From Acidobacteriota bacterium (GTDB lineage Bacteria > Acidobacteriota > Vicinamibacteria > Vicinamibacterales > Fen-181): 52,863 bases of DNA. Location of the stretch: contig JANYLG010000066.1 in assembly GCA_025363775.1 (NCBI GenBank), forward strand, positions 1 through 52,863, given 5' to 3'. The position numbers were made by a program, and so were the translations under genes. Under the pieces are notes generated by a model, which ran no database searches, was not told where the DNA came from, and saw nothing but the letters and a program-made list of their open reading frames with translations. Shown one piece after another: positions 1-9,121 of this stretch. Every line of letters starts with the position of its first letter. Position 1 is the first letter of the stretch.

Positions 1-973
1 CGCTGCGGTCGCGCACCAGGACACCGCGCTCGCTGAGCCCGTCGCGGATCGCCATCGAGGCGTCTCCGACGTGGAACAGGACGAAGTTGCCTTGGCTCTT
101 GTAGAACGGAATGCCGCGTTTCTCGAAGCCCTCGTAGAGCCGTTCTCTCGCCAGGATCGCCTGGCCCACGAAATCGGCGACGTAGGCGGGGTCACCCACC
201 CCGGCGCGGGCCGCTACCGCCGCGAGAATGTTCACACTGTATGGCGATTGCGCCTTGTGCAGGAACTTCACGTTGTCTTCTTGCGAGAACAGGCAGCCGA
301 TGCGCAGCCCGGCGAGGCCGTACGCTTTCGAAAAGGTTCGGCTGACGAACAGATTCTGGTAGCGATCTATCAGCGGCAGTGCCGTCACGCCGCAGAACTC
401 GTAGTAGGCCTCGTCGAACAGCACGGCGGCCCGGGGCGCGTGCTTCAGAATGGTTTCGATCGTCTCACACCCAATGCCCGTGCCGGTCGGGTTGTTGGGA
501 TTCGAAATGAGGACCGCGCGTGTCGCGGGCGAGATTGCCGCGAGCAGTTCTTCGAGCGGGAAAGCCAGGCTGGCAGCGCGATAAGGCCGCTCGAGAATCT
601 TCGCTCCCGCCACCTCCGAATAGAAACGGTACATGGCGTACGAGGGCGTGAGTACGATGACTTCCTCGTCCTTGTCCACGAAGGTATTGATCAGCACCTG
701 GATCGCTTCGTCGGTGCCGTTGGTCAGCGAGAATTGCGACTGGGGCACGCGGAAGAACCCGGACAAGGCCTCGCGCGTCGCTTCATATTCTGGGTAGATC
801 GTCAGGCGCTCCTGCGTGATTGCCTGTACTAGTGCGCGCACCACGGCGGGCGAACACCCCACGGTATTCTCGTTGAAATCCAGGCGCAGCTTGCCGGCTC
901 GCCCCGCGGTCGGAGGCGAGTAGGAAGCCATCTCTACGACCGCGCGACGCGGCTTCAACTCTGCCTCATCCAC
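1..973 (-). CDS. hisC: Histidinol-phosphate aminotransferase, 3' end outside window
   Basis: Reading the minus strand by eye gives (M)DEAELKPRRAVVEMASYSPPTAGRAGKLRLDFNENTVGCSP..., with an SNPNNPTGTG motif and an SRTFSKAYGLAGLRIG PLP-lysine motif. It has a GTG start at 973 (ATG alternative at 931), overlaps the hisD stop, and is open to the window edge. Confidence 0.9.
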   Translation of the reverse strand, partial: MDEAELKPRRAVVEMASYSPPTAGRAGKLRLDFNENTVGCSPAVVRALVQAITQERLTIYPEYEATREALSGFFRVPQSQFSLTNGTDEAIQVLINTFVDKDEEVIVLTPSYAMYRFYSEVAGAKILERPYRAASLAFPLEELLAAISPATRAVLISNPNNPTGTGIGCETIETILKHAPRAAVLFDEAYYEFCGVTALPLIDRYQNLFVSRTFSKAYGLAGLRIGCLFSQEDNVKFLHKAQSPYSVNILAAVAARAGVGDPAYVADFVGQAILARERLYEGFEKRGIPFYKSQGNFVLFHVGDASMAIRDGLSERGVLVRDRS

Positions 974-2207
974 GGCGTACCTCCACCGAGCGCGCATGCG
1001 CTTCCAGGCCCTCGGCACGGGCCAGCGTTGTAATGGCTGGCGACAATCGAGCCAGTGCCTGGGGATTCAACTGCTGGACGGAAATCACCTTCACAAAGTC
1101 GGCCGCGCTGAGCCCTCCACGCAGTCTGGCCGCGCCCGATGTCGGCAACACGTGGTTGGGGCCGGAGGCATAGTCGCCGGCCGCCTCCGGGCTGGTTGGT
1201 CCCAGAAACACACTGCCCGCGTGACGCACGCCTCCGATCAACGTTGCATCCTGCAGGCTCAGATGTTCGGGCGCGAAGCGGTTCGACAACTCCATCGCCT
1301 CTTCGTCCGAGGCGACCAGAAGGATGGCGCTGTTCTTGTCAATGGCTTTGCGTGCTGTCGGAGCGGTCGGTAGCGTGGTGAGTTGCGTTGCGATCTCCGC
1401 CGCGACGGCTTCGGCCAGACTCTTCGACGTCGTGAGGAGAATCGCGGAGGCGTCGGTGTCATGCTCGGCCTGAGCCAGCATATCGGCCGCCAGCCAGCGC
1501 GGATTTCCCTCCGAAGCGATGATGAGTATCTCGGTCGGCCCGGCCACGAAATCGATGCCGACTTCTCCGGCCAGCAGTTTCTTCGCGGCTGCGACATAGA
1601 TGTTGCCGGGGCCCACGATGCGGTCGGCGCGCGGGACGGTTCGCGTGCCGTAGGCGAACGCCGCGATGGCCTGCGCGCCACCCATTTCGAAGACGTGTGT
1701 CGCCTCGAGAATGAAAGCCGTGCCGAAGAGTTCGTCCATCGGCCGCGGCGTGGCCACCATGATGTTCGCGACGCCCGCGACCTTCGCGGGCACCACTGTC
1801 ATGATGACCGTCGAGGGCAGAGGATAGCGCCCTGAAGGAATATAGGCCGCGACGCTCTCGAGGGGGAGCACGATCTGCGAGAGACTCAGTCCTGGCGCCG
1901 GCTGTGCTCTCTTCGCCAGCGGGAGTTGAAGCTTCGCGAAGGCCCGGACGTTCTTTGCCGAAGTCTGTACCGCCTTACAAAATTGCGGCGACAGGCGTCC
2001 GGCCGCCGCGTCGAGTTCGGCTCGTGGCACGGCCACGCTCTTACGTTCCAGCTTGTCGAACTTACGAGCGTATTCGAGCAGGGCTTTGTCGCCGCGCTTG
2101 CGCACGTCTTCGAGGATCGGGCGGACGATCGCCTCGGCGTCGCTGAACCTGGCCGCCCGCCGGCGCAGCAACCCGGCGGCGGCTGAACTCTCGAGGATGC
2201 GAATCAT
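966..2207 (-). CDS. hisD: Histidinol dehydrogenase
   Basis: 413 aa; contains typical HisD stretches such as IVGPGNIYVAAAKKLLAGEVGIDFVAGPTEILIIA and AEHDTDASAILLT. Confidence 0.96.
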   Translation of the reverse strand: MIRILESSAAAGLLRRRAARFSDAEAIVRPILEDVRKRGDKALLEYARKFDKLERKSVAVPRAELDAAAGRLSPQFCKAVQTSAKNVRAFAKLQLPLAKRAQPAPGLSLSQIVLPLESVAAYIPSGRYPLPSTVIMTVVPAKVAGVANIMVATPRPMDELFGTAFILEATHVFEMGGAQAIAAFAYGTRTVPRADRIVGPGNIYVAAAKKLLAGEVGIDFVAGPTEILIIASEGNPRWLAADMLAQAEHDTDASAILLTTSKSLAEAVAAEIATQLTTLPTAPTARKAIDKNSAILLVASDEEAMELSNRFAPEHLSLQDATLIGGVRHAGSVFLGPTSPEAAGDYASGPNHVLPTSGAARLRGGLSAADFVKVISVQQLNPQALARLSPAITTLARAEGLEAHARSVEVRRG

Positions 2208-2220
2208 GGCAGATCGGCCC

Positions 2221-3093
2221 TCACAATACGATCTTGTTCAGCGGGTATTCGACGATGCCTTGCGCGCCCGCTTCTTTGAGACGGGGAATGATAACCCGCA
2301 CGGTGATCTCGTCGAGAATCGTGTTTACCGCCAACCACTCGCCATCGCTGAGCGAAGAGATCGTCGGGTTCTTCAACGCGGGCAAAACAGCCAACACGTG
2401 TTCGAGATCGTTCTTGTGGACGTTCAACATCAGGCCGACTTTACCGAGAGCATGGATCGCGCCTTCGAGCAGCATCGCCACATCTTGGATTTTGCGCCGC
2501 TTCCAGTCATCCTCCCAGGAAGCCTTGTTGGCGATGAACTGCGTGTTCGATTCGAGCACAGTGTCGATGATGCGCAGATTGTTCGCGCGCAGCGACGACC
2601 CGGTCTCGGTGACTTCGACGATGGCGTCGGCCAGCACCGGCGGTTTCACCTCGGTCGCGCCCCAGGAGAACTCCACCCTTGCAGTGACGCCGAACCTTGC
2701 AAGGTACCGCGTTGTGGCCCCTACCAGTTCCGTCGCGATGACTTTGCCTTGCAGGTCCTCAACGCTCTGAAATGGGGACGATTCGGGAACGGCAAGCACC
2801 CAACGCACGACGCCGAAGCTCTGCTTGGCGTAAATCAGATCGGCCACTGTGACGACATCGGAGTCGTTCTCCACCACCCAGTCCAAGCCCGTCAGGCCTG
2901 CGTCGAGTACGCCATCTTCGACGTAGCGCGCCATCTCCTGGGCGCGGATCAGTATGCACTCGATTTCGATGTCGTCGATCGAGGGAAAGTAACTCCGGCT
3001 CGACACCTGAATGTTGAATCCTGCACGACGAAAGAGATCGACGGTCGCGGTCTCGAGACTGCCCTTGGGAATGCCCAGCTTGAGCTTCATCAC
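2221..3093 (-). CDS. hisG: ATP phosphoribosyltransferase (long form)
   Basis: 290 aa; [23 protein letters not shown]-terminus, HisG-like throughout, with a C-terminal regulatory domain length. Confidence 0.95.
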
Positions 3094-3467
3094 TTGCCTC
3101 CGTATACGTGCTTCGGATCGTAGGTCCGCTCTTCAGTGACCTTCCACTCCGCGCTTTCGAGCGTTCGGAAGAAGCAGCTTTCATAGCCTTCGTGGCAGAC
3201 GCCAGGGCCTTTGACTTCGACGTGCAGCAGAACGCAGTCCTTGTCGCAGTCGGTCTGAATCGATTTCACCACCAGCGTGTGCCCGGAGATCTCGCCCTTC
3301 ATCCACAGCTTGTTGCGCGAGCGCGAGTAGAAGACGGCGCAGCCGGTCTCGACCGTTTTCGCGAACGACTCTTCGTTCATGAAGCCGACCATGAGCACGC
3401 GTCCGCTCTTGAAATCCTGAATGACGGCGGGAATCAACCCGCCGGTTTTCGCAAAATCGAGATCCAT
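3090..3467 (-). CDS. hisI: Phosphoribosyl-AMP cyclohydrolase
   Basis: 125 aa; [40 protein letters not shown] and [12 protein letters not shown] motifs. An SD-like GGAGG lies upstream on the minus strand. Overlaps hisG by 4 nt. Confidence 0.95.
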
Positions 3468-3498
3468 TCCAGTCGATTCCCTCCAAGAATTGAGATCA

Positions 3499-3544
3499 CA
3501 AAAACGAAACGGCCCGCTCCCCGATTTGGGGGCGGGCCGTTTCG
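3499..3544 (-). terminator. Rho-independent terminator, probable his attenuator
   Basis: Minus strand CGAAACGGCCCGCCCCCAAATCGGGGAGCGGGCCGTTTCG followed by TTTTTG. The outer 12 bp (3533-3544 with 3505-3516) are perfect. It lies between the His-rich leader peptide and hisI. Confidence 0.88.
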
Positions 3545-3565
3545 CTGAACTCCTTCAATACTCGC

Positions 3566-3634
3566 TCAGGACACAACGTACCCGCCCATCCCATGATGGT
3601 GATGATGGTGGGTGCGGTTCAGATTGAGCGGCAT
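3566..3634 (-). CDS. hisL: His operon leader peptide, MPLNLNRTHHHHHHGMGGYVVS
   Basis: Absent from the ORF track. Minus strand ATG CCG CTC AAT CTG AAC CGC ACC CAC CAT CAT CAC CAT CAT GGG ATG GGC GGG TAC GTT GTG TCC TGA: six consecutive His codons directly upstream of a terminator and hisI. Confidence 0.87.
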   Translation of the reverse strand: MPLNLNRTHHHHHHGMGGYVVS

Positions 3635-3754
3635 GAAGATGACAGAATAACACGCATTGCGGCATTGACCCGCCCTCCTCGCGTCGCGCCGTCTCGAATG
3701 TCGCGTTGGCCACGACCTGTTCCGGCTGAGGTGGCGCGGGGGGCCGCGCGCTCT

Positions 3755-3952: not shown

Positions 3953-4008
3953 CCGACGGCCGGAAGTGGGTTACGCTTGTGCCCGGCGCGCTCGAGAGGT
4001 TGCTGACG

Positions 4009-5295
4009 ATGTCCTTCCTGGATCGGATCTTCCCGGGGTTCCTGGCCGCACGGCGGGATCTGGCCGCGCGCCGTCCGCCCCATTTCCGCCCCGTCGCGGC
4101 GTCGTTTGCGCCATCGCCCGCGCCGTTCGACGATCTCCCGGCGCCCGAGGTCGACACGATCAACGAGAGCTCGCGGCGCTACTTCGAGCAGGACGGGATG
4201 CGGGCCTTCTGGATCAACAAGCCGTTCTCGGACGCGGTGTGGACCGGCTGGACGCTGTGGCGCTTCGGTCACCTGCTGACGGCGCTCGACCTGCGGCCCG
4301 GGGATCGTGTGCTCGACTTCGGCTGCGGGTCGGGCTGGTCTTCCATGATGCTCGCGCGGATGGGAACCGAGGTCGTGGGCATGGACATCGCGCCGGCGGC
4401 CATCGAGATCGCCCGCGAGACCTCGGCGCGCGGCCTGATGGACGTTGATGTGCCGCGTCCGCGATTCCAGGTGTACTCGGGCGGGCGCATCGACGCGCCG
4501 GACGGCCACTTCGACGCGATTGTGGTGTACGACGCGTTCCACCACCTGCCAAACCCGCGGACGGTGCTCGACGAGTTCCACCGCGTGCTGGCGCCGAACA
4601 GCCGGCTCGGCCTCGCCGAGCCGGGCATCGGCCACGCCGAGGGCGCGCATTCCCGCGACGAGATGGCCAAGGGCGTGCTCGAGCGCGAGCTGGACCTCGA
4701 GCAGCTGCATCGGAGCGGCCTGGCCGCGGGGTTCCAGGGCATGGAGGTGCTGGTCCCGGGCCTGCACCCGCACTCTGTCACGCTCCCGATGCGGCGGCTC
4801 CGATGGTACCTGCGCGGGCTGTCGTGGCTCGTGCCGGCGGACCATGTCCGCCTGGCGATCCTGCGGACGCCGATCGCGGTGTTCTGGAAAGGCCCCTACT
4901 TCATTTCGAGCGCCCACCCGCGTGACCAGTCGGCGGCGATCAAGCCGGGCCGCGCCTCGTTGACCTGCCGGCCGGGTGAGGCGTTCGTCATCGACGCCGA
5001 CGTGACCAACACGAACACGACGGTGTGGTTGAAGGACGGCCAACGAGGCCGGGGAGTCGTACGGCTCGGCGCGCACCTGCTCGCCGGCGACGGTCGGGCC
5101 ATCGAGCAGGACTACGGCCGCGCGGCGATCCCGCACGACATGGCGCGCGGTTCGAGCGCGCGCCTCGAGTTACGCCTGTGGGCTCCAGGCACGGCCGGCC
5201 GGTTCATCGTCCGCCTCGACATGGTCGACGAGGGCATCGCCTGGTTCGCAGCCGAGAACTCGCCGACCGCAGACGTCACGCTCATGGTGGGATAG
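4009..5295 (+). CDS. Class I SAM-dependent methyltransferase with C-terminal beta-rich extension
   Basis: Motif I VLDFGCGSGWSSMMLARMGTEVVGMDIAP and DAIVVYDAFHHLPNP. ATG at 4009; a GTG at 3979 is an alternative start. Confidence 0.85.
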   Translation: MSFLDRIFPGFLAARRDLAARRPPHFRPVAASFAPSPAPFDDLPAPEVDTINESSRRYFEQDGMRAFWINKPFSDAVWTGWTLWRFGHLLTALDLRPGDRVLDFGCGSGWSSMMLARMGTEVVGMDIAPAAIEIARETSARGLMDVDVPRPRFQVYSGGRIDAPDGHFDAIVVYDAFHHLPNPRTVLDEFHRVLAPNSRLGLAEPGIGHAEGAHSRDEMAKGVLERELDLEQLHRSGLAAGFQGMEVLVPGLHPHSVTLPMRRLRWYLRGLSWLVPADHVRLAILRTPIAVFWKGPYFISSAHPRDQSAAIKPGRASLTCRPGEAFVIDADVTNTNTTVWLKDGQRGRGVVRLGAHLLAGDGRAIEQDYGRAAIPHDMARGSSARLELRLWAPGTAGRFIVRLDMVDEGIAWFAAENSPTADVTLMVG

Positions 5296-5520
5296 CCGGT
5301 ACCGTCCGCGAACGCCCGAACAATCCTCGCCTTTGACCGCGTTGCGCTCGACGTTCGCGTGGACACTGGTATGGTCGCCGAGGTGACCATACCTCCGCGT
5401 CGCCGCATGCGGTGGCTTCGGTTGCGTTCGCCCGACTCGGGGGATGCCGCAGTGGCCGAAGGTCAAGCTGTCGTGACGGTGTTGGCCCTGGAAGGTGTCT
5501 GGTGCAGGCTGACAACGGCT

Positions 5521-8125: not shown

Positions 8126-9121
8126 CTATTTGAGCGACCGCGCAGCTTCGCGCGCGAAGTAGGTAATGATGATGTCGGCGCCGGCCCGGCGAATGCCGGT
8201 CAGCATCTCCATCATGGCACGGTGGCCGTCGATCCAGCCTCGTTCGGCGGCGGCCTTCAGCATCGAGTACTCGCCGCTCACGTTGTACGCGGCCGTTGGA
8301 TAGCCAAACTCCGCCTTCACGCGGGCGATGACGTCGAGGTACGGCAGCGCGGGCTTCACCATGACGATGTCCGCCCCCTCCTCGATGTCCTCCGCCACCT
8401 CGCGCAGCGCTTCTTCCGAGTTGCCCGGATCCATCTGGTGAGAGCGCCGGTCACCGAACTTCGGCGCCGAGTCAGCCGCGTCGCGGAACGGGCCGTAGAA
8501 GGCCGAGCAATACTTGGCCGCGTACGACATGATCGCGACGTCCTGGAACCCACGCTCGTCGAGCGCACCCCGAATCGCGCCGATCCGGCCGTCCAACATG
8601 TCGGACGGCGCCACGATGTCGGCGCCCGCCTCGGCATGGGAGATGGCCACGCGGACGAGGAGCCCCACGCTCTCGTCGTTGGCGATCTCGCCGTTCACCA
8701 CGACGCCGCAATGCCCGTGCGACGTGTATTCACACAGGCACACGTCGGTGATCACCAGGATCTCGGGGTCGGCCTGCTTGATGGCCCGGACCGCGGCCTG
8801 CACCGGCGCCTGGGCGTCGTACGCCGCCGATCCCACGTCGTCCTTGTACGCCGGCAGGCCGAACAGCAGCACCCCTGGGACGCCGTCAGCCTTCGCCGCC
8901 ACCGCTTCCTTCACCGCCTCGTCCACCGAGAGGTTGAAGACGCCGGGCATCGACGTCACCTCGCGGCGGACGCCAGAGCCTTCGCACACGAACAACGGAT
9001 AAATCAACATGTCGGGCGAGAGGCGGGTTTCGCGCACCATCGCTCTGATCGCCGGCGACCGTCGCAGGCGGCGGCCGCGGCGGACAAGCTTCAAACGGGT
9101 ACCGATCTCGGTTGGTGACAT
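8126..9121 (-). CDS. hemB: Porphobilinogen synthase
   Basis: 331 aa; [47 protein letters not shown] and [13 protein letters not shown] motifs. Confidence 0.97.

Follow-up and report, generated by a model that had tools for sequence, protein, structure and literature searches.

The DNA upstream of hisI in the window (the whole 52,863-nucleotide [nt] stretch of an Acidobacteriota genome of the order Vicinamibacterales that was analyzed) very probably encodes a ribosome-mediated transcription attenuator of the his operon, and this putative attenuator probably turns the operon on when histidine is short. The locus, which had no prior annotation, contains a short open reading frame (ORF) with codons for the cognate amino acid, an intrinsic terminator before the first structural gene and a predicted antiterminator that starts past the control codons (Table 1). 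A preliminary description had proposed a His leader, an intrinsic terminator and a competing 2:3 pairing ahead of hisIGD, and the anatomy of the locus and its conservation both support this proposal.

Table 1. Features of the his leader and his operon in the window
Feature	Position	Strand	Basis or remark
Predicted extended -10 element TGT-TATTCT (hexamer 3649-3644)	3644..3652	-	Sequence; 9 nt before leader ATG
Leader peptide gene, MPLNLNRTHHHHHHGMGGYVVS	3566..3634	-	Sequence reading; ATG at 3634, TGA 3568-3566; no Shine-Dalgarno
Region 1 (CCGCACCCA), able to pair with region 2	3609..3617	-	Predicted 1:2 hairpin, -16.5 kcal/mol
Six consecutive His codons (control codons), CAC CAT CAT CAC CAT CAT	3593..3610	-	Sequence reading
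Region 2 (GGGCGGG), in leader peptide tail; antiterminator 5' half	3581..3587	-	Sequence, pairing tests
Region 3 (CCCGCCC), terminator 5' arm core and antiterminator 3' half	3530..3536	-	Sequence, pairing tests
Intrinsic terminator, hairpin 3545-3504 and U tract TTTTT 3504-3500	3500..3545	-	Folding, -37.6 kcal/mol
hisI Shine-Dalgarno (GGAGGG)	3479..3484	-	Sequence reading
hisI, phosphoribosyl-AMP cyclohydrolase, first structural gene	3090..3467	-	NCBIfam NF000768.0, 152 bits, cut-off 126
hisG, ATP phosphoribosyltransferase	2221..3093	-	TIGR00070 and TIGR03455
hisD, histidinol dehydrogenase	966..2207	-	TIGR00069
PLP-type aminotransferase ORF, next operon gene, cut by contig end	2..1018	-	Open frame

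The hisI, hisG and hisD genes all score above their NCBIfam cut-offs, and the truncated aminotransferase ORF is, judging from its sequence, probably hisC. Direct reading of the minus strand bears out the leader that was first described there, a peptide of 22 residues with six consecutive His codons. Regions 1, 2 and 3 lie where they had been placed, and region 2 does follow the His codons, but it starts 5 nt past the last of them rather than immediately. The gap between leader stop and terminator, given earlier as 21 nt, measures 20 nt, and the GC hairpin described as having 12 bp or more and ending in TTTTT is present with a larger stem. Region 2 is complementary to region 3, and the resulting antiterminator hairpin has a predicted energy of -29.5 kcal/mol.

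We infer the transcription start, leader translation, stalling and histidine response from the sequence, in which the ORF, the His run, the terminator, the 2:3 complementarity, their conservation and the promoter spacing can be read directly. RNA polymerase would start at, or a few bases from, the leader AUG, and a ribosome would load on the leaderless 5' end. When charged tRNA-His is plentiful, the ribosome would translate past the six His codons, reach the stop codon and cover region 2, leaving region 3 to pair with region 4, so that the terminator forms and transcription of hisIGD is turned off. When charged tRNA-His is scarce, the ribosome would stall at the His codons and cover region 1; region 2 would then pair with the newly made region 3, blocking the terminator and allowing transcription of the operon.

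HisI relatives were drawn from a collection of species genomes, and the best 80 are nearly all titled Acidobacteriota and mostly Bryobacterales. Short ORFs with ≥4 His in 7 codons occur in 75 of the 79 usable hisI upstream regions of this Bryobacterales-type set. When the window and 79 relatives are read in any frame, 76 of 80 upstream regions reach the same density, compared with none of 80 on the opposite strand, approximately 0.7 of 80 in shuffled sequences and 11 of 80 in sequences read backwards, a control that preserves CAY-like repeats. In a different branch, belonging to the window's own order and with HisI approximately 60% identical, 27 of 29 further regions contain a His-rich ORF (≥4 in 7, any frame). 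The His run is kept in relatives of both kinds. The sequence flanking it varies freely, while the His content is preserved. A phylum-wide sample based on hisG extends the leader to at least nine further families (f19, f23, f30, f31, f34, f37, f39, f40, and f73); the His-rich ORFs of this sample are invariably on the correct strand, with zero matches on the opposite one. In the same sample, the leader is absent from f36 (one doubtful case apart), f41, f43, f44, f54, f60, and f67. The leader peptide of family f71 is identical to that of a Bryobacterales-type record, L091, which ties these genomes to Acidobacteriota. L091 itself (CALQCC020000041.1) carries a Bryobacterales-type his operon and leader under the title Bordetella parapertussis, and that title looks wrong. 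As judged from these samples, the same arrangement of leader and terminator is widely conserved in Acidobacteriota.

Chance placement of a CAY repeat beside an unrelated terminator has some initial appeal, as CAT/CAC repeats are simple sequence and the backwards-read controls reach 4 of 7 in those 11 regions. The 3.79-Mb genome, however, contains no (CAY)6 run besides that of the leader, and together with the counts of regions against controls, this indicates that the leader run did not arise by chance. The repeat is also conserved in frame, at a fixed spacing to promoter and terminator, in several families of the phylum. Conservation of the arrangement in relatives refutes coincidence, which is scarcely credible.

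When the scan is confined to sequence downstream of the leader stop codon, an intrinsic terminator lies between that codon and hisI in 105 of 107 leaders. Bryobacterales-type terminators have the 5' arm GCCCGCC, and those of the window's own order have GCCCCGCC or GCCTCGCC. Measured against dinucleotide shuffles, pairing of the leader tail with the 5' arm has a mean z of -1.9, and in 119 of 121 leaders it is stronger than that of a decoy stretch 5' of the His run. RNAalifold on the leader alignment recovered only a seven-pair terminator core with zero compensatory changes, and the terminator pairs and arm are nearly invariant across the Bryobacterales-type alignment, which makes conventional covariation uninformative there. 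Swapped-pair tests were therefore used, in which tails and arms are exchanged among species and row and column effects removed, an alignment-free probe of coordinated change. None of 10,000 permutations was as good as the leaders' own tail:arm pairs for 121 leaders, and 31 of 10,000 were as good for 36 nonredundant leaders. These comparisons argue that the competing pairing between leader tail and terminator 5' arm is real.

The proposed set of three pairings is thus kept in relatives in part. The terminator and the 2:3 pairing are retained; for the 1:2 pairing, swap permutations lend support in the Bryobacterales-type set (0 of 5,000 as good as the own pairs) and none in the window's own order (4,000 of 5,000 as good). 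In the His leader of a genome of the window's own genus (G004), the 2:3 pairing does not outperform shuffles. When the whole leader RNA is folded freely, the terminator is always favored over the antiterminator, and antitermination would therefore need co-transcriptional kinetics, that is, the order of synthesis. Such a preference in free-energy folding of the finished RNA is usual for attenuation switches.

The leader ribosome could act instead on translation, by deciding whether a hairpin hides the hisI Shine-Dalgarno (SD) sequence. Three leaders of family f11, which belongs to the window's own order (L005, L014, and L181), have no U-tract terminator after the His leader, and their hairpin is able to cover the hisI SD, e.g., by pairing ATTGTCC with GGACAAT in L014. 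The lack of a terminator together with the SD-hiding hairpin suggests that this family has switched to translational attenuation. The window hairpin, however, ends in TTTTT 33 nt ahead of the hisI start and leaves the hisI SD free, and the terminator is present in nearly all leaders scanned, which makes translational control very unlikely for the window. The ORF could also be a gene for a functional His-rich (metal-binding) microprotein that merely precedes the operon, with the hairpin as its plain terminator, and it does have its own promoter and terminator. Nevertheless, the peptide is unconserved outside the His run while the RNA pairing of its tail with the terminator is conserved, and the ORF has no second copy in the genome and is linked to the his operon, with which it apparently moves. 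A microprotein gene is thus highly improbable, and transcription attenuation remains the preferred reading.

The start of the leader was compared among relatives by aligning upstream regions on the leader ATG and scanning with a score for the best -10 box. In the Bryobacterales type, an extended -10 element (TGcTATACT) ends its hexamer 8 to 9 nt before the ATG, with TTC directly 5' of the ATG; the window's leader upstream, TGTTATTCT, fits this pattern, with a gap of 9 nt and an SD energy of -1.9 kcal/mol. In the window's own order, the pattern is TTGACA, approximately 17 nt, TAnnnT, and then 8 to 10 nt to the leader ATG. A strict -35/-10 consensus scan of the window reported no promoter, and a consensus -35 is absent. 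Of 134 leaders, 122 have their best -10 box 5 to 10 nt before the ATG; the same spacing occurs in 16% of shuffled upstream regions and at 25 of 105 hisI starts. Strong SD pairing is seen at 8% of Bryobacterales-type leaders and 60% of hisI starts, with 28% in shuffles; the picture is less clear-cut in the window's own order, where 43% of leaders are at or below -4. The window leader itself combines a -10 box 5 to 10 nt before the start with the lack of an SD. Given an ATG 8 to 9 nt behind a conserved -10 box and no SD, we predict a leaderless leader mRNA, with transcription starting at or a few bases from the leader AUG, and translation of the leader peptide appears to begin with the first RNA base. 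Family f30 (L224, L231, and L220) is an exception, with the -10 box 18 nt upstream, a strong SD (-7.1) and a normal 5' untranslated region.

HisI of the window is up to 90% identical to Bryobacterales proteins versus 60% to that of G004, whose his operon is a different one and carries a separate His leader. These identities first suggested a mis-binned contig. This explanation was rejected because DNA identity to the same genus continues beside the operon: the adjoining ispG is 97% identical in the same-genus genome G001, and DNA identity between the window and G001 (L120) spans positions 8998 to 5509. Similarity ends near 5446, and beyond approximately this point the his operon was not seen at the matching place in G001. 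Between ispG and the his leader, and convergent with ispG, lies a gene for a methyltransferase-domain protein (3979-5295, plus strand) with weak matches only; its DNA does not resemble the equivalent stretch of G001. The locus L032 is 84% identical to the window over a stretch that reaches from position 3654, shortly before the leader ATG, into hisD; farther upstream, L032 has a different gene. In the HisG tree, the window stands beside L032 (100/100) and outside a 23-row clade of its own order (100/100), so that horizontal transfer fits better than mis-binning. L003 and L004 (from G090 and G053) form a second, independent case of the same kind. This genome probably acquired its his operon from a Bryobacterales-type donor, and the simplest reading is that promoter, leader and terminator travelled together with it. 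Four genomes of the same genus or family (G001, G002, G003, and G006), some of them highly complete, have no match to the HisI or HisG of the window; they are possibly histidine auxotrophs or carry strongly diverged genes.

The preliminary description likened the locus to enterobacterial HisL, and the likeness holds for the working principle but not for the sequence family. A short ORF with a His run, mutually exclusive pairings and a terminator before the first his gene are shared with enterobacterial hisL (Rfam His_leader, RF00514). This Rfam model, proposed earlier as a check, gave no match to the leader at the gathering score and none even at an E value of ≤10. Escherichia coli hisL has seven His codons and the leader here six, and the first structural gene is hisI rather than the hisG of the enterobacterial operon. 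Unlike the usual enterobacterial arrangement, the leader ATG lies directly behind the -10 box without an SD, the leader looks leaderless, and region 2 is inside the leader coding tail. No Rfam family matches at its threshold, and the nearest subthreshold match on this strand is Thr_leader (RF00506; 29.5 bits against a cut-off of 55, whole model), a likeness driven by the CAC/ACC-rich leader and the GC terminator, whereas here the control codons are His and the operon is his. NrrF, ncr1175, and Pxr also matched the terminator hairpin below threshold, and these were discounted as matches to a GC hairpin.

In the accessible parts of the literature, reports of His-leader attenuators concern Gammaproteobacteria and several Firmicutes (PMC9413887; PMC2965389), the latter including predictions for hisS*/hisZ of bacilli (PMC2965389) and for the Bacillus cereus group, Peptostreptococcaceae and Erysipelotrichales (PMC9413887). 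The Firmicutes leaders likewise combine a His-codon ORF, a terminator and an antiterminator upstream of histidine genes, but they belong to another phylum and other genes, and a leaderless start is unmentioned in the available text of those two papers (PMC2965389; PMC9413887). Leaderless leader peptides are documented for trpL of Sinorhizobium meliloti (PMC7298713) and for leuL, trpL, and ilvL of Streptomyces lividans (PMC8079986), and mycobacterial poly-Cys ORFs are leaderless leader-peptide attenuators according to a title cited in PMC13236596. In these examples, as is predicted here, the transcript 5' end is the AUG, and the codons are those of the cognate amino acid; the amino acids and phyla are different, and there is no histidine leader among them. 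Leaderless genes are predicted at approximately 13% in Acidobacteria (PMC3160421). A literature search, whose scope did not take in the 2010 Lopatovskaya survey (doi 10.1134/S0026893310010164), found no description of an Acidobacteriota His attenuator. The points added here are the predicted leaderless start, the broad spread in Acidobacteriota and the apparent cotransfer with the operon.

It is reasonably likely, on the comparative evidence, that his regulation in large parts and several orders of Acidobacteriota normally relies on a leaderless His attenuator (promoter, AUG 8 to 9 nt behind the -10 box, His run, tail:arm antiterminator and terminator), with one family switched to SD sequestration and the whole unit moving between orders with the operon by horizontal transfer. 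This would give a function to a predicted class of Acidobacteria attenuators that, in the accessible text of a 2010 genome-wide survey, was left unassigned (PMC2965389). A major soil phylum would also join the Proteobacteria and the few Firmicutes in which His-codon attenuation is known. With a leaderless start as predicted, a ribosome would load without an SD on an RNA end only tens of bases behind the polymerase, and the leaderless attenuator may therefore be a compact natural system for testing the coupling of transcription and leaderless translation. Furthermore, the two apparent cases in which an operon was transferred together with its switch are relevant to the question of how regulation may survive horizontal transfer.
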